Part shown: positions 10,598 through 54,691 of the stretch, one piece after another
Layout of the letters: the number at the start of each line of letters is the position of its first letter
How positions within the stretch are numbered: position 1 is the stretch's first letter
DNA from: Thermoanaerobaculia bacterium
GTDB taxonomy: Bacteria > Acidobacteriota > Thermoanaerobaculia > Multivoradales > JAHEKO01
Direction: 5' to 3'
Length of the DNA stretch: 64,000 nt
Assembly: GCA_947259925.1 (NCBI GenBank)
Contig: CAMYOG010000006.1
Coordinates: 62,001 to 126,000 of the forward strand
Notes under the pieces: generated by a model
What the model was told of the DNA's origin: nothing
Seen by the model: the letters and a program-made list of their open reading frames with translations, nothing else
Databases searched by the model: none
Made by a program: the position numbers and the translations under genes

Positions 10598-10993
10598 CTA
10601 GCTCGCGGTGGTGATGGCGAGCGGCTGGATGCCGGAGTCGATCAGGCGCCGTAGGGCGGCCGCCCAGGTCTCTTTCGCCGGCCCGGTGGAGAACGAGACG
10701 CCCGCTTTATAGACCGCCGCGGGATCGGCTCCGTGGCTACCGTTGGTGCCCGCGAAGCGACACCACTCGACGCGGCCGGGCATGCCGAAGCTCTTGGTGC
10801 CCATCTGGACGCGGAAGACATAGCTGGCGCCGACGCGCAGCTGCTGATTCGACTCGATGCCCATTCCCGACTCGCTGACGTCGACGACGGCCGCACCGAT
10901 CGGGAACTCGACGGCGAAGTCCTTGGTCGCGTAGCGCTGGCTCGAACGCGGCTCTTCGCCGGCCTCGATTCGCTGCAGTCTCTTTCGATTCAC
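10598..10993 (-). CDS. PilZ domain protein (probable c-di-GMP receptor)
   Basis: 131 residues forming little more than one PilZ domain. Both binding motifs are kept: RxxxR as RSSQR near residue 16, and D/NxSxxG as DVSESGMG near residue 38. The final strand holds VYKAGVSF, typical of the barrel end. It should bind cyclic di-GMP and act as an adaptor in the cytoplasm. No diguanylate cyclase or type IV pilus gene lies nearby, so the output is unknown. Confidence 0.85.
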   Translation of the reverse strand: MNRKRLQRIEAGEEPRSSQRYATKDFAVEFPIGAAVVDVSESGMGIESNQQLRVGASYVFRVQMGTKSFGMPGRVEWCRFAGTNGSHGADPAAVYKAGVSFSTGPAKETWAAALRRLIDSGIQPLAITTAS

Positions 10994-14669: not shown

Positions 14670-15236
14670 ATGGCAAAGAAGAACCCCTCCGCGGCCGCCG
14701 GGATCGATATCGAGGCCGGTGGCGAGAGCCTGCATCAGGTTCGAGACATTCTCTTTGGCGCGCAGATGCGTACCGTCGATCGTCGGTTGGCCCAGATCGA
14801 AGACCGGTTCCAACGCGATCTGCAGCAGCACAGGGCCGAGACCGAGAAGCGCGCCGCGAGCCTCGACAGCCAGTTGCGCAAGGAGTCGGAGAAGCTCAGT
14901 GAGCGCATCAAAGCCGAGCGCACCAAGCGCACGGCAGACCTCAAGGACCTCCGCGCCTCGCTCAAGAGCGGGCTCCAGAACCTCGACAAGACGGTCAGCA
15001 AGCTCGAGACGACGACCGATCGCGCCGATGCCGAGCTGCGCGACGAGATCCTCAAGCTCACCAAGGGGCTGGGTGACGACCTCCGAGCACTCTCCGATCG
15101 CCTCAGCGGCGATCTCGACAGCGCCGTCTACGAGCTGCGATCCGAGAAGACCGACCTCGCCTCGTTGGTGCAGCTCTTCTCGGACATGGCCGGCCGCCTC
15201 AGCGAGGATCTGGAGACTCCGCCTGAGGAGAAGTGA
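14670..15236 (+). CDS. Coiled-coil protein, first gene of the small-GTPase cassette
   Basis: 188 residues from the ATG at 14670, preceded by GGAAG. Almost the whole chain (about 25-165) is predicted coiled coil, rich in Lys, Glu, Arg and Leu with heptad-like spacing (LAQIEDRFQRDL, RKESEKLSERIKAERTKR, LRALSDRLSGDL). No signal peptide or membrane helix. The stop codon abuts the GTG of the next gene (AAG TGA GTG), so the four genes to 18390 look like one transcript with coupled translation. By position it may tether or regulate the OmpA-domain protein or the GTPase; this is inference. Confidence 0.75.
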   Translation: MAKKNPSAAAGIDIEAGGESLHQVRDILFGAQMRTVDRRLAQIEDRFQRDLQQHRAETEKRAASLDSQLRKESEKLSERIKAERTKRTADLKDLRASLKSGLQNLDKTVSKLETTTDRADAELRDEILKLTKGLGDDLRALSDRLSGDLDSAVYELRSEKTDLASLVQLFSDMAGRLSEDLETPPEEK

Positions 15237-17039
15237 GTGCCCGCAGACCCCACGCGCCCGCTCGAGCCCCCCGAAGAGCTCGGCGCCGCGCCCGCCGACG
15301 ACGGCAGCCGGGACGGTGAGTCTTTCGCCAAGCTCCGTGAGCTGTTGCTCGGCGAGGAGAGCCGGCAGCTCGAGCGGCTCCGGAGAGAGCTCGACGAGTC
15401 GGAGCTGAGCGTCGAGGAGCTCGCCGAGCGTCTGCCCGGTGCGGCGGCTCTCAGCAGCTCACAAGACGACCAGCTGGCACGGGCTCTGGCACCGACCATC
15501 GAGGCCGGCATCGACGAGTCGGTCGAGCGGGACCCGCAACGGATCGCCAACGCCGTCTATCCGGTGCTCGGCCCCGCGATTCGCAAGGCGATCGCCGAGA
15601 CCATGGCCGGCTTCGTCAACGCGATCAATCGGGCCATCGAGCACAGCCTCTCGCCCCGGGGACTCAAGTGGCGCTTCGAGGCCTGGCGCACCGGAGTCCC
15701 CTATTCGCAGATCGTCATCAAGCACGCGCTCGTCTTCCAGGTCGAGCAGCTCTTTCTGATCCACCGCGAGACCGGTCTACTTCTCCTTCACGAGCACGTG
15801 GACGAAGCGGGCACGAAGGACCCCGACCTCGTGTCGGGCATGCTGACCGCGATTCGTGACTTCGTCAGCGACTCGTTCGACGCCGAAGACGAGGGAGGTC
15901 TCGCCGATTTCAGGGTCGGCACCCTCAGCGTGCTCGTCGAGCGTGGTCCGGAGGCGCTGCTGGCGGCAGTAGTCCGCGGCCAGCCACCGACCGAGCTACG
16001 CCTTCAGCTCGAGGAGACCCTCGAGCTGATCCATCTCCAATTCCGGCAGCCGTTGGCGAAGTTCGACGGCGATGCAACGCCGCTCGAGCCCGCCAGACCG
16101 CTCCTTCACGATCGTCTCGAGACGATCCTGACCACCGACCGGCCAGCGACGCTGGGCTGGGCGCCGCGTGCCGCGTGGCTGGTGCTGGCGCTGGTGGTAC
16201 TGCTCGGGATCGTCTGGACCGTCCGCTCACACCTCGCCTGGGAGCGCACCCTCCGACACCTCGAGGAGGCGCCGGGAATCGTACTCATCGAAGCCGAGCG
16301 TGGACTCGGCGGTTGGCGTCTCAGGGGGTTCTTCGACTCCGACGGCGCCGACCCGGGGGTGGTCCTGGCCGAGAGCGGCATCGATCCACAAGACGTGACA
16401 GGAGAGTGGCAGCCCTACCTTTCTCTCGAGCCGCAGCTCGTCCTCGCGCGTACCGAGCGCCTGCTCGAGCCCCCGCCTTCGCTCGAGCTGGAGCTCGATC
16501 GCGGCCGCCTGATCGCACGGGGCAGCGCATCGCCCAGGTGGCGCGCCCGGGCCGTCCGTCTCGTCGACTCCATCCCTGGAATCGCCGGGTCCGACCTCTC
16601 GGACGTCGAACTGGCGCCCTCCGACGAGCTGAACCGGATGCTTCGGGAGGTGGAGGAGGTGCACGTCCTCTTCCGACTCGGCTCGGCCGAGCTCGACCCG
16701 GAGCCACGGACCCGAGTGGAGGCGCTCGGACCGGCGTTGGCTCGACTGCTGGACCTTTCCCGGGCGGAAGGGTACGAGACCGCGATCGAGCTGGTCGGGC
16801 GCACCGACACCACCGGTACCGAGCAGACCAACCGCCTGCTCAGCCGCCAGCGCGCCGACTCGGTGCGTGACGCCCTGGTCGCCGCGGGCTTCGAGGTGCC
16901 CGAGCTAGAGACCACCGGAGTCGGCATGTCCGAGCCGCTGCGCGGCGAGGATCCCGAATCGACGTCGCGGATCAACCGCAGCACCACTTTCCGCGTCCAG
17001 CTGAGACCCGCGGGACCAGCGAGTGAGGTCATGGAGTGA
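15237..17039 (+). CDS. Membrane-anchored OmpA-domain protein with possible roadblock/longin-like cytoplasmic part
   Basis: 600 residues from a GTG directly after the previous stop. Regions: charged N-terminus (1-80); an alpha/beta region (about 150-280) with VEQLFLIHRETGLLLLHE and a later VRGQPPTELRLQLEETLEL that resembles roadblock/longin-type GTPase regulators; one membrane helix (312-329); a BON-like stretch (SPRWRARAVRLVDSI); and a C-terminal OmpA domain (about 480-595) with the peptidoglycan-binding pattern ELVGRTDTTGTEQTNRLLSRQRADSV. This predicts cytoplasmic N-terminus, single span and a periplasmic wall-binding end. The stop overlaps the GTPase start (GTGA). The OmpA call is firm; the roadblock/longin assignment is my inference from strand pattern only. 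Confidence 0.8.
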   Translation: MPADPTRPLEPPEELGAAPADDGSRDGESFAKLRELLLGEESRQLERLRRELDESELSVEELAERLPGAAALSSSQDDQLARALAPTIEAGIDESVERDPQRIANAVYPVLGPAIRKAIAETMAGFVNAINRAIEHSLSPRGLKWRFEAWRTGVPYSQIVIKHALVFQVEQLFLIHRETGLLLLHEHVDEAGTKDPDLVSGMLTAIRDFVSDSFDAEDEGGLADFRVGTLSVLVERGPEALLAAVVRGQPPTELRLQLEETLELIHLQFRQPLAKFDGDATPLEPARPLLHDRLETILTTDRPATLGWAPRAAWLVLALVVLLGIVWTVRSHLAWERTLRHLEEAPGIVLIEAERGLGGWRLRGFFDSDGADPGVVLAESGIDPQDVTGEWQPYLSLEPQLVLARTERLLEPPPSLELELDRGRLIARGSASPRWRARAVRLVDSIPGIAGSDLSDVELAPSDELNRMLREVEEVHVLFRLGSAELDPEPRTRVEALGPALARLLDLSRAEGYETAIELVGRTDTTGTEQTNRLLSRQRADSVRDALVAAGFEVPELETTGVGMSEPLRGEDPESTSRINRSTTFRVQLRPAGPASEVME

Positions 17040-17554
17040 TCCAGAAAAAGATCTGCATGGTCGGAGTGTTCGCTACCGGCAAGACGAGCCTGGTGCGGCG
17101 TTGGGTCGAGTCGATCTTCTCCGACAAGTACCACTCGACCGTCGGCGTCAAGATCGACAGGAAACAGGTGGAGGTCCGGGGCACCACGGTCAATCTCGTC
17201 CTCTGGGACCTCGCCGGCCGGGACGAGCTCGAGGACATCAAGCCGAGCTATCTGCGCGGAGCGTCGGGCATCTTGTACGTCGTCGACGGTACGCGCCGCG
17301 AGACGTTCGACCAGGTCTTCGAGCTCCGCGACATCGCCGCCCGGACGATCGGCGAGGTGCCGTCGGTGGTCGCCCTGAACAAGTCCGACCTGAGAGCCCA
17401 GTGGCAGCTCGAGCGTGCCGATTCGAGTCGCTTGGACGACATGGGCTGGCACAACTTCACGACCAGCGCCCTGACCGGCGAGGGTGTCGAGGAGGCCTTC
17501 GAATGGCTGGCGAAACTCACCCTCGGCGACTACCGCGGAGAAGTCGGGTCGTGA
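17036..17554 (+). CDS. Ras-superfamily small GTPase (Rup/Rab-like)
   Basis: 172 residues from a GTG that overlaps the previous stop as GTGA. All G motifs are present: G1 GVFATGKTS (10-18), G2 threonine T35 in YHSTVGV, G3 WDLAGRDE (57-64), G4 NKSD (115-118) and G5 TSA (143-145). The position of the catalytic Gln of Ras (after DxxG) is Arg62, so intrinsic hydrolysis is probably low. The stretch SYLRGASGILYVVDGTR is typical of bacterial Rab-like proteins, not of MglA. There is no lipidation motif at the C-terminus; membrane contact would come through the OmpA-domain partner. Its stop overlaps the phosphatase start as GTGA again. Confidence 0.9.
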   Translation: MIQKKICMVGVFATGKTSLVRRWVESIFSDKYHSTVGVKIDRKQVEVRGTTVNLVLWDLAGRDELEDIKPSYLRGASGILYVVDGTRRETFDQVFELRDIAARTIGEVPSVVALNKSDLRAQWQLERADSSRLDDMGWHNFTTSALTGEGVEEAFEWLAKLTLGDYRGEVGS

Positions 17555-18390
17555 GTGGACGCTCAGAGCCCTACGAGCTCGATCTCTTCGGCCTGACCGA
17601 CATCGGGCGCAAACGCGAAGAGAACGAGGACCAGTTCCTGATCGCCTCGCTGAGCAAGTCGGCGCAGACCCTGCACTCGAGTCTCGACGAGGCCTGGCTA
17701 GCCGATCGGCTGGACTGCGGCCGCGCCTACCTCCTGGTCGTAGCCGACGGACTGGGCGGCCTCACCCGCGGCCGCGAGGCGAGCGGCACCGCGGTGGAGG
17801 TAGTCGCCGAGCAGATCTCGCACGCCGCGAGCTGCTACTACATGAGCGAGATCGAGCGCGAGCACGAGTTCATCGACAAGCTCGAGGCGGCGATGGAGCG
17901 CGCGCACGAGCAGGTCAAGGAGCGCCTCGGGGCGGACGGCCGCAGCGCAGCGACCACGATCACGATGCTGACGCTCATTTGGCCCCGCGGCTACTTCGTC
18001 CACGCGGGCGACAGTCGCGGCTACTACCTGCGAAAGGGACGGCTGCTGCAGTTCACCCGCGACCAGACGATGGCCGACTACATGGTCGATGCCGGTCGGC
18101 TCACCGAGGAGGAAGCGAGCCAGGGACCCTTGAAGCACGTGCTGCTGAGCGCCGTCGGGGGCCAGGAGCTCAAACCGTCCGTCGGGCTCGTCGACTTCGA
18201 AGACGGTGACGTGCTGCTCCTGTGCACCGACGGACTGACCGGCCACGTCCCCGACGACCGGATCCGCGAGATCCTCGAGACTACAGGCGACGCCCAGAGC
18301 GCCTGTCGGCAGCTGGTCGACGAGGCTCTGGCGGCGGGGGGTACCGACAACATCACCGCCATCGTGGCCCGGATGTCCGAGCGCGACTGA
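17551..18390 (+). CDS. PP2C-family protein serine/threonine phosphatase
   Basis: 279 residues from the GTG at 17551. The metal and phosphate motifs of bacterial PP2C are complete: REENEDQF (22-29), VVADGLGG (63-70), HAGDSRGYYL (151-160), LLLCTDGLTG (222-231) and AGGTDNITAIVA (262-273). It should dephosphorylate Ser/Thr on proteins in the cytoplasm. As last gene of the cassette, its likely targets include the coiled-coil, OmpA-domain or GTPase partners. The only kinase in the window is 34 kb away, so the opposing kinase is unknown. Confidence 0.92.
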   Translation: MSGRSEPYELDLFGLTDIGRKREENEDQFLIASLSKSAQTLHSSLDEAWLADRLDCGRAYLLVVADGLGGLTRGREASGTAVEVVAEQISHAASCYYMSEIEREHEFIDKLEAAMERAHEQVKERLGADGRSAATTITMLTLIWPRGYFVHAGDSRGYYLRKGRLLQFTRDQTMADYMVDAGRLTEEEASQGPLKHVLLSAVGGQELKPSVGLVDFEDGDVLLLCTDGLTGHVPDDRIREILETTGDAQSACRQLVDEALAAGGTDNITAIVARMSERD

Positions 18391-18685
18391 CGAGGGGGCC
18401 CGAGCCGCGCCGGGCCGAGCGTCCAGCCTGCCCAGCAATTGTGGCGGCGATGCGCCGGGTACGGCCGCCACTTCCGACCGTGGAGATTCTCCCTACCCGA
18501 ACTACCGGGCCATGGAGAAACTCCATGGGGCCCGAATCGCGGGACCGAGCCACGCGGCTAGCGCCGCTCTCCTCGGGCACCAGAAGCTCCGATGCGACCA
18601 CCCTCTGAGGAGCGCGAGCCTCTTGGTTCGGTCTTGCGCCTATCGCCAACGGTCTACGGTACGACGCTTGCGAATTGAAGCCCGC
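18391..18685. other. Intergenic region before the subtilase
   Basis: 295 bases with no supported gene. It holds the strong inverted repeat at 18506-18534. Downstream of it the sequence falls in GC (about 18615-18680, with TTGGTTCGG and TTGCGAATTGAAG), which is where I would expect the promoter of the subtilase gene, but no single -35/-10 pair is convincing. Confidence 0.4.
18506..18534. terminator. Long inverted repeat between phosphatase and subtilase genes
   Basis: The arms CCATGGAG and CTCCATGG pair perfectly around an AAA loop (18510-18528), and the stem continues as CGGG with CCCG after a two-base bulge. This gives 12 base pairs. There is no T-run, so it may be a terminator working with Rho, an mRNA-stabilising end for the cassette, or a regulator binding site. 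Confidence 0.45.
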
Positions 18686-20947
18686 ATGACCCATGCGCGC
18701 CATTTCTTCCCTACCCTGGTTGCTGGACTGGTCCTGACGGCACTGCTCGCGCTCTCGCCCGCGCTAGCTGCCGCGGCCCCCGAGACGCTCATCGTTCAGG
18801 GCCGGGGCGTGGCCGGGACCGCCGCGCTGGTCCGAGCGGTGGGCGGCAACGTGACCCACGAGCTCGACCTCATCGGTGGCGTCGCCGCCGAGCTGACGCC
18901 CGAGCAACGGAGGGCGCTCGCGCGGCGCCATCCGGACCTTCGTGTGTACCCCAACCGGACCACCGCCGTCACCAGCGCGCTGGACAGCATCAGCTACGTC
19001 TCCGATCGGTTCGGCGACGACAGCTTCGACAACAACGACGGCAGTCGCCACTTCGCGTCCCCCTGGATCGAGGTCGATCCGCCGGCCGATGCTCCCAACC
19101 CCGAACGCGGGCGGGTCCGGATTCGCAACGGTGAGCTGCGCCTGGGCGGCCGCTCGTCGAGCACCAGTCAGGTGAGCATCGCCCGCCGGGTCGATCTGGG
19201 CGCGGCCGTGGTCCAAGCGAGACTGAGCTTCGAGTACCGGACCGGATCGCGCGTCGACGAGGGAGACGCCGTGAGCCTGGAGGTCTCGGCCGACAGCGGA
19301 GAATCGTACAGCGAGCTCGAGCGCTTCACCGGCATCGACGGCAAGCTCGAGGGCTCGCGGGACTTCGACATCTCCGGCTACGCTTCCGCGGCGACCACGA
19401 TCCGCTTCCGCGTCTCCAACGGCTACGGCGGCAAGAGGGAGTATTTCTACGTCGACAATCTCGAGGTCAGATCCACGTCGACCACGGTCAGCACCGTCGA
19501 CGCGGCCCTTACCCCGCCCGAGATCACGGAGGCCCCGACCCACTGCAGCGGGAGTCAGAGCGGTAGCTTCGGCAATACCCCCTACACCGACTACCCGACA
19601 GTCATCGGAGCCGACTGCCTCCACGACGAAGGGATCTTCGGCCATGGGGTCACCATCGCCTTCCTCGACACCGGCCTGTGGAAGAAGACCGCGACCCAGG
19701 ACAACCATCTCCAGGAGCTCCGCATCCTGGCGCAGTACGACGTGATTCGGGATCGTCTCGAGCCGGATCTGTACGAGGACCACGACTACGAGCAGGACAT
19801 CGACGATGACAACGGCCACGGCACGCACGTCGCGGCGGTCGCCCTGAGCAGCGACTCGACCGAAAACGGCGCCTATCAGGGCATCGCTCCCGGGGTCAAT
19901 CTGGTCGCGGTCAAAGCACTCGATACGACCGGTGCCGGTACCTACCTCGACGTGATTCGGGGAATCGACTGGATCGTCACTCACAAGGACCTCTACAACA
20001 TCCGGGTGCTGAACCTCTCCATCGGCGCGCCACCGCAGTCTCGCTATTGGGACGATCCCCTCAACCAGGCCGTGATGGCTGCCTGGCAGGCGGGCATCGT
20101 CGTCGTCGCCTCGGCCGGTAATCAGGGACCCGACGCGATGACGGTCGGAGTGCCCGGGAACGTCCCCTACATCATCACCGTCGGGGCGATGTCGGACGGT
20201 GTGACCCCACAGAATCCGTCAGACGACTTCCTGACTTCCTTTTCCGCCGCCGGGCCGACCCACGAAGGATTCGTCAAGCCCGAGCTCGTCGCGCCCGGCG
20301 GCCACATGCTCGCCTGGATGCCGCCGCACGGGACCATTCCGCAGGAGCATCCCGAGTTCATGGACGAGGGTCAGGAGTACTTCACGATGTCCGGCACCTC
20401 CCAGGCGACCGCGGTGGTCAGCGGCGTCGTCGCGCTCATGCTGGAGACCGAGCCGGGCCTGAGCCCCGACGACGTCAAGTGTCGCCTGATGGCGTCGGCG
20501 CGACCGGCCGTCAGCACCACCGGCGAGCTCGCCTACAGCGTCTTTCAACAGGGCGCGGGCATGGTCGACGCCTACCGGGCTGCCTCGAGTCAGGCTGTCG
20601 GATGCGCCAACCGCGGTCTCGACGTCCACGACGACCTGGCCGGCATCCGGCACTTCGCCGGCCGGGCACGGCAGCTCACGGACGGTAGCTACTTCCTCGA
20701 TGGCCTGCCCGCGACCGACGCGTTCGTCTGGGACGACGGTTTCGCCTGGGGTGATGCCTTCGTCTGGGACGACGCCTTCGTCTGGGACGACGGTTTCGCC
20801 TGGGGTGACGCCTTCGTCTGGGACGACGCCTTCGTCTGGGACGACGGTTTCGCCTGGGACGACGGTTTCGCCTGGGGTGACGCTTTCGTCTGGGACGACG
20901 GGCTGGCCGAGCCGATGTCGATCAACACCTGGGTCGAACAGGAGTGA
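18686..20947 (+). CDS. Secreted subtilisin-like serine protease (S8) with inserted beta domain and hexapeptide tail
   Basis: 753 residues from the ATG at 18686, which begins a signal peptide (to about 30). Residues 33-95 look like an I9-type propeptide. A beta-rich jelly-roll-like domain follows (about 105-265, with DGDDSFDNNDGS-type start and REYFYVDNLEV end). The catalytic domain starts near 300: D328 (FLDTG), H378 (DNGHGTH), oxyanion N479 (ASAGNQ) and S572 (MSGTSQA). After about residue 675 come ten hexapeptide repeats with consensus D-A/G-F-V/A-W-D/G, then a short end. The protease is complete and should be active outside the cell. The insert between propeptide and catalytic domain and the Trp/Asp repeat tail are unusual. 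Confidence 0.9.
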   Translation: MTHARHFFPTLVAGLVLTALLALSPALAAAAPETLIVQGRGVAGTAALVRAVGGNVTHELDLIGGVAAELTPEQRRALARRHPDLRVYPNRTTAVTSALDSISYVSDRFGDDSFDNNDGSRHFASPWIEVDPPADAPNPERGRVRIRNGELRLGGRSSSTSQVSIARRVDLGAAVVQARLSFEYRTGSRVDEGDAVSLEVSADSGESYSELERFTGIDGKLEGSRDFDISGYASAATTIRFRVSNGYGGKREYFYVDNLEVRSTSTTVSTVDAALTPPEITEAPTHCSGSQSGSFGNTPYTDYPTVIGADCLHDEGIFGHGVTIAFLDTGLWKKTATQDNHLQELRILAQYDVIRDRLEPDLYEDHDYEQDIDDDNGHGTHVAAVALSSDSTENGAYQGIAPGVNLVAVKALDTTGAGTYLDVIRGIDWIVTHKDLYNIRVLNLSIGAPPQSRYWDDPLNQAVMAAWQAGIVVVASAGNQGPDAMTVGVPGNVPYIITVGAMSDGVTPQNPSDDFLTSFSAAGPTHEGFVKPELVAPGGHMLAWMPPHGTIPQEHPEFMDEGQEYFTMSGTSQATAVVSGVVALMLETEPGLSPDDVKCRLMASARPAVSTTGELAYSVFQQGAGMVDAYRAASSQAVGCANRGLDVHDDLAGIRHFAGRARQLTDGSYFLDGLPATDAFVWDDGFAWGDAFVWDDAFVWDDGFAWGDAFVWDDAFVWDDGFAWDDGFAWGDAFVWDDGLAEPMSINTWVEQE
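20717..20896 (+). repeat. Ten tandem 18-base repeats coding a Trp/Asp-rich hexapeptide
   Basis: Ten in-frame 18-base units encode D-A/G-F-V/A-W-D/G at the end of the subtilase. Two alternating variants occur (DAFVWD and DGFAWG/DGFAWD), arranged in a higher-order pattern of about three units. DNA identity between units is high, which points to recent duplication or slippage. Confidence 0.85.
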
Positions 20948-52414: not shown

Positions 52415-54604
52415 ATGCCGTCCGACCCGAAGGCGCACGATACCCCCGACGAGACCTACCTCGCGGCGGACCTGGCCGGTCGCCGGCTGGGCGCCTACCG
52501 CATCCTGCGGTCACTCGGCCGGGGCGGGATGGGCGAGGTGTTCCTCGGCGAACGGGCGGACGGAGCGTTCGAGGGCCGCGTCGCCATCAAGCTCGTGCGC
52601 CCAGAAGGCAGCGAGGACACCCTGCTCCGTTTCCAGGCCGAGCGCCAGACGCTGGCGAACCTCGAGCATCCAAACATCGCGCGTCTGCTCGACGCCGGCA
52701 GCACCGCCGACGGGCGTCCGTACCTGGTCATGGAGCACGTCGACGGCGTACGCATCGACCGGTACTGCGACGATCTGCAGCTGGGCGTGGAGGAGCGCCT
52801 GCGGATCTTCCTGGACGTCTGCGAAGCGGTCCAACACGCCCATCGCAATCTGATCGTGCACCGCGACCTCAAGCCGGACAACATCCTGGTCAGCGCCCAG
52901 GGAGACGCCAAGCTCCTGGACTTCGGCATCGCCAAGCTGCTTCCCGGGGCCGCCAGCGCGGAAGTAGCGGTGGAGACGCTCACCGGCAAGGCGGCGATGA
53001 GCCTCCACTACGCCAGCCCCGAGCAGCTGGTCGGCGAGCCGATTACCACTGCGACCGACGTGCACGCCCTGGGTCTTCTCCTGTTCCAGCTCCTGACCGG
53101 GCGGCATCCCTACGCACAGCCCGAGGAGTCGGCGGTCGCCACCGTCCATGCCGTGCTGCACCGCGAAGCCGAGCCTCCCAGCCAAGTGGTGACCGAGCCG
53201 TTCGCCGGCCTGCCGCTAGAGCGCCTCAGACGCCGGCTCGACGGCGATCTCGACGTCATCACCCTCATGGCCATGAGAAAGGAGCCCGAACGGCGCTACC
53301 CCTCGGTCGAACGACTGGCCGAGGACGTCCGACGCCATCTGGACGGTCGGCCGGTGAAGGCGCGTCCGGACACGCTCGGCTACCGGACCGCGAAGTTCCT
53401 CCGCCGCCACAAGCTCGGAGTCGGTGCGACAGCGATGATCCTGCTCTCCCTTCTCGGCGGGATGAGCGCGACCCTGTGGCAGGCGAGAATCGCCGAGCAG
53501 CGCGCGGCCGACGTCCGGGCTCTGGCCGGATCGCTCATCTTCGAGGTCGACGACCTGATTCGCGATCTGCCGGGCTCGACGCCGGCCCGGCAGCAGATCG
53601 TGACGCGCGCGCTCACCTACCTGGATCGCCTGGCCGCCGAGTCCGCCGACGACCCGGAGCTGCGGCGCGAGCTCGCCCTCGCCTATCAACGAGTGGGCAA
53701 CATCCAGGGCAACCCGAACACCTCGAATCTGGGCGACACCCAGGGTGCCCTGTCGTCCTACCGCAAAGCGCTCGACCTGGCCGAGGAGGTCGTCCGTAGC
53801 GATCCCGCTGACAGCAACGCCGTTCGCTCCCTGGCCGTGATCCACGAGAAGCTCGCCGACACCCTGGCGTGGACGGGCGATCTCTCCGCCGCCGAGGAGG
53901 ACGCTGCGAGCGCGCTCGCCGCTTTCGAGGACCTGGCCACCAGACATCCCGAGGATCTGCGCCACCACCTGTCGCTCGCCATCAGCCTGATCAAGATGGG
54001 CGATCTCGAGGGGAATCCCGACTTCCCCAACATGGGCAGGCCGGAGTCGGCGCTCGCCTCGTACCGGCAGTCCAGGCTGCTTCTGGACGAGCTGGCGGTC
54101 GCTCACCCCGAGGACTCGGGGGTGCGCCGCTACCGCGCGCTGATCCGCGAGCGGCTGGGCACCGTGCTGCTCGCTACGGGCGACCTGGAGGCGGCAACCG
54201 CCGCTTCCAGGGAGTCGCTGGCGATCCGCCAGGCGACCGCCGAAACCCAGACCGGCAACACCGAGGCCCAGCGAGACGTGGCCGTAGCGCTCGAGAAGCT
54301 CGGTGACGTGCTGCTCGAGGGGGGTAACTCCGAAGCGGCGCTCGAGGAGTTCCGGAACTCGTTCGAGATCTTCCGTGCGCTCGCCGCCGCGGACCCGCAG
54401 AACGCCTCCGCCAGGCGCTCGCTGGCGATCAGTCACCGGAAGCTGGCGACGGCTCTGCAACGGGCGGGTCGGTCCGGGACCGCCAAAGAGGAGCTCCGGG
54501 CGAGCCGCGAGATCCTCGAGGAGCTGGTAGCCGCCGACCCGGGGAACGCGCAGCTCCGAGAGGAGCTCGCCGGGCTCGTCGAGCTGCTCGCCTTTCCGCC
54601 GTAG
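52415..54604 (+). CDS. Membrane-anchored Ser/Thr protein kinase with TPR-like extracytoplasmic repeats
   Basis: 729 residues. The kinase domain (27-310) has G-loop LGRGGMGEV (34-42), ATP lysine K59, catalytic loop HRDLKPDN (149-156), DFG (169-171) and ASPEQ (200-204). One membrane helix (335-354) follows. The C-terminal 370 residues are helical repeats resembling TPRs (ALAYQRVGNIQGNP, LAVIHEKLADTLAWTGDLSAA, ALEKLGDVLLEGGNSEAALEE, AISHRKLATALQRAGRSGTA). This is the typical architecture of acidobacterial and planctomycete kinases. The repeats probably sense or bind partners outside. It is divergent from fhs over a 73-base gap. Confidence 0.93.
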   Translation: MPSDPKAHDTPDETYLAADLAGRRLGAYRILRSLGRGGMGEVFLGERADGAFEGRVAIKLVRPEGSEDTLLRFQAERQTLANLEHPNIARLLDAGSTADGRPYLVMEHVDGVRIDRYCDDLQLGVEERLRIFLDVCEAVQHAHRNLIVHRDLKPDNILVSAQGDAKLLDFGIAKLLPGAASAEVAVETLTGKAAMSLHYASPEQLVGEPITTATDVHALGLLLFQLLTGRHPYAQPEESAVATVHAVLHREAEPPSQVVTEPFAGLPLERLRRRLDGDLDVITLMAMRKEPERRYPSVERLAEDVRRHLDGRPVKARPDTLGYRTAKFLRRHKLGVGATAMILLSLLGGMSATLWQARIAEQRAADVRALAGSLIFEVDDLIRDLPGSTPARQQIVTRALTYLDRLAAESADDPELRRELALAYQRVGNIQGNPNTSNLGDTQGALSSYRKALDLAEEVVRSDPADSNAVRSLAVIHEKLADTLAWTGDLSAAEEDAASALAAFEDLATRHPEDLRHHLSLAISLIKMGDLEGNPDFPNMGRPESALASYRQSRLLLDELAVAHPEDSGVRRYRALIRERLGTVLLATGDLEAATAASRESLAIRQATAETQTGNTEAQRDVAVALEKLGDVLLEGGNSEAALEEFRNSFEIFRALAAADPQNASARRSLAISHRKLATALQRAGRSGTAKEELRASREILEELVAADPGNAQLREELAGLVELLAFPP

Positions 54605-54691
54605 CGGCCAGACCAGCCCGACGCGGTGAAGACCCTGGCGTCCGGCCGGTTCTGATAAGAACGAACGGTTGCACGTTCCCGGGAGATGCTG

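Follow-up and report, generated by a model that had tools for sequence, protein, structure and literature searches.

A Group 1 Rup-type GTPase cassette with a PP2C phosphatase in the output slot in a Thermoanaerobaculia bacterium

A 64,000-nucleotide stretch of contig CAMYOG010000006.1 from a Thermoanaerobaculia bacterium of the phylum Acidobacteriota (hereinafter, the window) contains four tightly packed genes, here denoted A to D, that encode a coiled-coil protein, an inner-membrane protein with an OmpA-like domain, a Ras-like GTPase and a PP2C serine/threonine (Ser/Thr) phosphatase. Judged from their sequences, the first three genes are a Group 1 Rup-type cassette, a known arrangement, in which the slot after the GTPase usually holds an output protein with a shared domain of predicted PAS fold. 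In our estimate, there is an even chance that the window cassette is a variant in which the PAS-bearing output enzyme was replaced by PP2C, which would make it a wall-anchored GTPase switch with a Ser/Thr phosphatase output.

All four genes lie on the forward strand: gene A (14670-15236, ATG start, 188 amino acids), gene B (15237-17039, GTG start, 600 amino acids), gene C (17036-17554, GTG start, 172 amino acids) and gene D (17551-18390, GTG start, 279 amino acids). The TGA stop codon of A directly abuts the start of B, and both the B/C and the C/D junctions are GTGA overlaps; the genes are translationally coupled. An earlier note on this DNA had described four co-directional, coupled genes with the same identities, which agrees with the open reading frame coordinates and with the Pfam, NCBIfam and transmembrane predictions. 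The product of gene A matched only coiled-coil families of Pfam and NCBIfam, all below the family cut-offs, and no transmembrane segment was found in it, so that it is predicted to be a cytoplasmic coiled-coil protein. Its N-terminus carries the motif RDILFGxQ, as do most of its homologs (70 of 97), and a looser pattern, R-x-hydrophobic-L-hydrophobic-x-x-E/Q, is present at the N-termini of 73 of the 101 homologs of B; these are possibly one shared assembly motif.

The GTPase C is a single-domain protein (Pfam Ras, 3.9e-31) that falls under the 240-amino-acid size limit of Group 1 Rup and fits the Rup group, which the earlier note had mentioned. Its closest relatives in the PDB are Rab proteins, and its nucleotide-binding motifs are GVFATGKT (G1), DLAGRD (G3) and NKSD (G4). 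The position of Ras Gln61 is occupied by Arg62, and there is no catalytic glutamine in G3; among the cassettes surveyed below, glutamine is found at this position in only 1 of 103 loci. Protein D matches Pfam PP2C_2 (7.9e-10) and the NCBIfam model for Stp1/IreP-type PP2C (1.3e-51, under the cut-off of that model), and retains all the metal-binding motifs (NED, DGxGG, GDSR, DG and GTDN), which are largely invariant among four cassette PP2Cs. By its motifs, which are intact, D is a predicted PP2C Ser/Thr phosphatase, and because the PP2C core begins at about residue 12, there is no effector domain.

The arrangement of genes A to C is not peculiar to this organism. Group 1 Rup neighborhoods have been described as consisting of a coiled-coil protein, a protein that combines an unknown domain, a transmembrane helix and an OmpA domain, and an output gene encoding a GGDEF/EAL protein or a histidine kinase with an invariant glutamine in its N-terminal region; the respective GTPases lack the G3 glutamine (Wuichet and Søgaard-Andersen 2015, PMC4316618). 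Our survey included 104 non-redundant loci with the GTPase, from Acidobacteriota, Cyanobacteriota, Nitrospirota, Myxococcota, Verrucomicrobiota, Planctomycetota, Pseudomonadota, Gemmatimonadota, Chloroflexota and other phyla. The order coiled coil, transmembrane/OmpA protein, GTPase recurs across many of these phyla: both A and B are encoded upstream of the GTPase in 84 of the 93 loci with room upstream, so that the conserved transmembrane, wall-binding GTPase cassette proposed in the earlier note is borne out. In three cassettes (L033, L084 and L200), two Rup-type GTPase genes stand in tandem. In the tree built from the survey sequences, the window GTPase is placed among GTPases from the cassettes of cyanobacteria, gammaproteobacteria and other bacteria.

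What varies is the downstream slot. Among the 97 loci with room downstream, 76 encode a protein with the shared effector domain, 8 encode a PP2C without this domain, and 13 have neither; next to the cassette in several of these 13 there is a histidine kinase, either alone or together with a sigma54 response regulator. Locus L140 and loci L196-L199 have no PAS effector and adjoin a histidine kinase or a sigma54-type response regulator. The effector domain, about 135 amino acids long with a near-invariant glutamine in its terminal helix, is predicted with high confidence to adopt the PAS fold (predicted local distance difference test score, pLDDT, 92.9), with structural matches to LOV/PAS domains. 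In the proteins scanned with Pfam, it is attached to histidine kinases, class III cyclases, HD-GYP and GGDEF-EAL proteins and sigma54 activators; two to three PAS-like copies occur in the output proteins of L062 (4314-6350), L021, L023, L028, L030, L065 and L142. That PP2C is a standard member of the cassette, as the earlier note had supposed, is not supported, given that 76 of 97 slots hold a PAS-like-domain output protein and PP2C occupies this slot in one clade only. The partnership proposed there stands among Acidobacteriota for the OmpA protein and the coiled coil only, with no PP2C in the cassettes of the other 15 Acidobacteriota genomes that encode B; beyond this phylum, PP2C is conserved within the Gemmatimonadota clade that includes the window cassette.

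Specifically, the same PP2C is encoded in eight Gemmatimonadota cassettes, in seven of which it occupies the slot after the GTPase (L019, L020 and L189-L193), so that, with the window, there are eight loci with PP2C in the output slot and no effector domain; in the eighth Gemmatimonadota cassette, L021, PP2C is encoded upstream of A and a double-PAS histidine kinase is also present. The nine PP2C cassettes are monophyletic in the trees of both the GTPase (support 100/91) and B (100/99). Protein D is 47-53% identical to the other cassette PP2Cs and at most 35% identical to the other PP2Cs of its own genome, and by this measure the cassette PP2Cs are a dedicated subfamily distinct from the latter. 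The effector domain, searched with profile A1, was found neither near the cassette nor anywhere else in the window genome (92% complete); as a positive control, the same profile detected it in 13 of the 15 other Acidobacteriota genomes with B. It was likewise not found genome-wide in six of the eight Gemmatimonadota genomes with PP2C cassettes (G297, G499, G547, G344, G423 and G506), one of which, G499, has a main contig of 5.51 Mb. The two genomes in which it was found are G298 and G299; G298 carries two GTPase cassettes, L020 with PP2C and L142 with a double-PAS histidine kinase, and the effector domain is located only in L142.

The window cassette was probably acquired laterally from a Gemmatimonadota lineage. 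Protein B shares 65% identity with the Gemmatimonadota form but at most 50% with those of Acidobacteriota; the GTPase was not found in the other genomes of the same family that were searched, and only one other genome of the same order encodes it, with 49% identity. The exonuclease encoded 2.3 kb upstream shares 62-65% identity with the closest genomes of the same order and 38-42% with Gemmatimonadota. Contamination is an unlikely source of the Gemmatimonadota affinity because both this exonuclease and the DUF885 gene at 54686 match genomes of the same order, the latter having its closest relative there.

The PP2C clade also differs in its GTPase. When the 9 GTPases of the PP2C clade were compared with the 94 other cassette GTPases, both top discriminating positions fell in switch II: position 62 is R/K in all 9 but E/D in 79 of the 94 others, and position 67 is D/E in all 9 and most often K/R elsewhere. 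As aligned, switch II of the PP2C clade is charge-reversed. Protein B shows parallel charge shifts in this clade, where residue 154 changes from K/R to V/I/L (9 of 9 loci), residue 162 becomes K/R (9 of 9) and residue 223 changes from D/E to R (8 of 9; A in the window protein). The pair C62-B154 ranks first among 19,594 inter-protein B-C pairs by corrected mutual information, and B158 and B162, which share a helix face with B154, are likewise high in covariation with C. Furthermore, in L140, where the GTPase is unrelated to the PP2C clade and has K62, B likewise has V154 and K162. This covariation is suggestive, although not proof, of a contact between B and C.

Protein B comprises a predicted cytoplasmic domain (residues 156-268; 15702-16040) conserved across all cassettes, a single transmembrane segment (311-331; 16167-16229), a predicted periplasmic alpha/beta region (about 341-470; 16257-16646) and an OmpA-like peptidoglycan-binding domain (478-580; 16668-16976; Pfam OmpA, 9.5e-12). 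The AlphaFold2 (AF2) model of B has a mean pLDDT of 83.5, with values below 80 for numerous helices and loops in the N-terminal half, and contains a helix (309-344) that matches the transmembrane segment. In this model, the cytoplasmic domain shows the order helix, two strands, helix, three strands, helix, which fits a roadblock/longin-like topology. A Foldseek search of the B model against viral models gave, after the OmpA matches, three matches to synaptobrevins/v-SNAREs, all weak (E 0.012-0.032; probabilities 0.90, 0.92 and 0.94). Synaptobrevins are longin-SNARE proteins. In the search of full-length B against the PDB, the OmpA/periplasmic part accounts for all 50 matches listed, and the periplasmic region and OmpA domain together align to Rv0899 (OmpATb). 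Small GTPases are known to use roadblock/longin dimers as platforms (PMC10933270, PMC3521125), and the data suggest that the cytoplasmic domain of B is probably such a platform.

On this basis, the following scheme can be proposed. With its OmpA domain on peptidoglycan and a span across the inner membrane, B would present the roadblock/longin-like domain to the cytoplasm as a docking and regulatory platform for C, acting as a guanine nucleotide exchange factor (GEF) or a GTPase-activating protein (GAP); the coiled coil A would probably assist the assembly of B or serve as its scaffold. A change in the cell wall, signaled by B, would change the nucleotide state of the GTPase, which would then engage D rather than a PAS effector through the switch II surface that was recoded in the PP2C lineage, altering the phosphorylation of Ser/Thr kinase substrates. 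D has neither the N-terminal domain nor the coiled-coil linker of the RsbU/SpoIIE-type PP2Cs, and so such control would require direct binding. Taken in full, namely that a Ras-like GTPase directly controls a PP2C according to the state of the wall, that the roadblock/longin domain of B is its GEF or GAP, and that the charges of switch II were swapped when the PAS effector was exchanged for the phosphatase, this scheme is tentative, a possibility that we would not call probable. We infer that B binds C, that C binds D and that the signal runs from the wall to the phosphatase.

Several observations weigh against this scheme. When the PP2C clade is removed, C62-B154 drops to rank 341 (z 2.4), so that coevolution of B and C independent of this clade is not supported and the signal mainly reflects one evolutionary event. 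The switch II recoding is not strictly tied to the replacement of the effector by PP2C because L061 encodes an R62/D67 GTPase beside a PAS-effector gene, with no PP2C found, and L021, with a recoded switch II, has both PP2C and a PAS histidine kinase. As for the roadblock/longin assignment, the evidence consists of the AF2 topology and the weak Foldseek matches. The hhalign comparison of B residues 150-280 with a 24-sequence alignment of MglB-type roadblock proteins gave no match, the low diversity of this alignment making it a weak test. In addition, a Pfam scan of 57 homologs of the B domain with E values up to 10 yielded only scattered chance matches, including Fuz_longin_1 (0.12), a PDB sequence-profile search with the domain gave nothing significant, and no Robl_LC7 match was obtained for B or the scanned neighbors; the sole Robl_LC7 match of the window genome is on a different contig (C50).

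The role of PP2C itself can be explained in other ways. The earlier note held that it resets the GTPase, a claim that is not supported: in one clade, PP2C occupies the output slot, and because the majority of other cassettes encode an output protein there, output is the more likely function. On the reset reading, D would provide feedback, dephosphorylating A, B or C after the action of an unlinked Ser/Thr kinase and thereby resetting the switch, with the real output encoded elsewhere in the genome. In L021, PP2C lies upstream of A and a PAS histidine kinase is also present as the output, which fits such an accessory role, and kinases are at hand: the window genome encodes at least one, and in L020 a kinase gene is located two genes upstream. 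Nevertheless, in eight of the nine cassettes D directly follows the GTPase, with nothing else output-like present, neither the window genome nor the six Gemmatimonadota genomes listed above yielded a PAS effector, and no kinase gene is a conserved neighbor; we regard the feedback role as unlikely. We would place lower still the explanation that D is an ordinary housekeeping PP2C of the PstP/Stp1 type, co-transcribed by chance in one lineage without functional coupling. D does match the Stp1 family broadly, with no special domain on the catalytic core, and all PP2C cassettes trace back to a single event. Yet the adjacency persists in all nine loci despite approximately 50% protein divergence, and several of these loci retain the overlap of stop and start codons; the cassette was apparently transferred into the acidobacterium as one unit; and the switch II recoding coincides with PP2C, which belongs to a dedicated subfamily. 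That the four genes are unrelated and came together by chance is extremely improbable: the lack of PP2C in the other acidobacterial cassettes would fit, but for A-B-C this explanation is refuted by conservation across many phyla.

The proposed Group 1 Rup-type switch with a phosphatase output can be compared with several known systems. With the described Group 1 Rup cassettes, it shares the coiled-coil gene, the gene combining a domain, a transmembrane helix and OmpA, the small Ras-like GTPase without the G3 glutamine, the signaling gene, and the lack of a roadblock (MglB) gene recognizable by sequence; it differs in that its fourth gene encodes PP2C rather than a GGDEF/EAL protein or histidine kinase with a Gln-bearing domain, and in that the Gln61 position, usually Glu/Asp, is Arg/Lys in its clade. 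The term PP2C does not appear in the main text of the description of these cassettes (PMC4316618). As in MglA/MglB, a small GTPase adjoins a protein with a roadblock/longin-like domain, predicted at the structure level, but B is bound to membrane and wall and has no Robl_LC7 match, and the GTPase is Rab/Ras-like, so that the distinction from MglA/MglB drawn in the earlier note holds at the sequence level. The actinobacterial conservons (CvnA-D) are likewise membrane-linked four-gene GTPase signaling operons, but consist of a histidine kinase, an MglB roadblock protein and an MglA-type GTPase, with no OmpA protein or PP2C. RsbU/SpoIIE-type PP2Cs are regulated signaling outputs as well (PMC12143880, PMC8080068), although driven through an N-terminal domain and a coiled-coil linker. 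Finally, OmpATb/ArfA (Rv0899) resembles B in having a periplasmic alpha/beta region followed by an OmpA domain, whereas B additionally has a large cytoplasmic GTPase-associated domain.

The neighboring genes are not related to the cassette: according to Pfam, they encode an exonuclease and a pyridoxal phosphate-dependent decarboxylase upstream and a subtilase downstream. The 3' end of the subtilase gene (18512-20947) contains 54-bp tandem repeats at 20716-20901, which encode DAFVWDDGFAWGD-like units. A short open reading frame on the reverse strand (10598-10993) looks PilZ-like by eye, PilZ being a receptor of cyclic di-GMP. The Ser/Thr protein kinase of the window, which contains TPR repeats, is encoded at 52415-54604, not adjacent to gene D, and is a possible counterpart of this phosphatase.

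As of their description in 2015, no Rup GTPase had been characterized experimentally (Wuichet and Søgaard-Andersen, PMC4316618), and our literature searches turned up no paper reporting experiments on them. Judged by these searches, three elements are new: the variant with PP2C, the recoding of switch II and the assignment of a roadblock/longin fold. The bacterial Group 1 Rup GTPases are closely related to the Rab/Ras group of eukaryotes. The roadblock/longin reading names a candidate regulator for them: if confirmed, this fold would explain the role of the 'unknown' domain present in all Group 1 Rup cassettes, which would be the platform for the GTPase in a Rab-like system of bacteria. The data further suggest that one GTPase is fitted to many types of output by means of the shared PAS-like domain. 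The persistence of PP2C cassettes without any findable Gln-bearing effector domain constrains the idea that the invariant glutamine of that domain provides a GAP in trans (PMC4316618). The exchange of the PAS effector for PP2C, together with the reversal in switch II, would amount to a natural experiment in the partner specificity of small GTPases, with specific residues to mutate.

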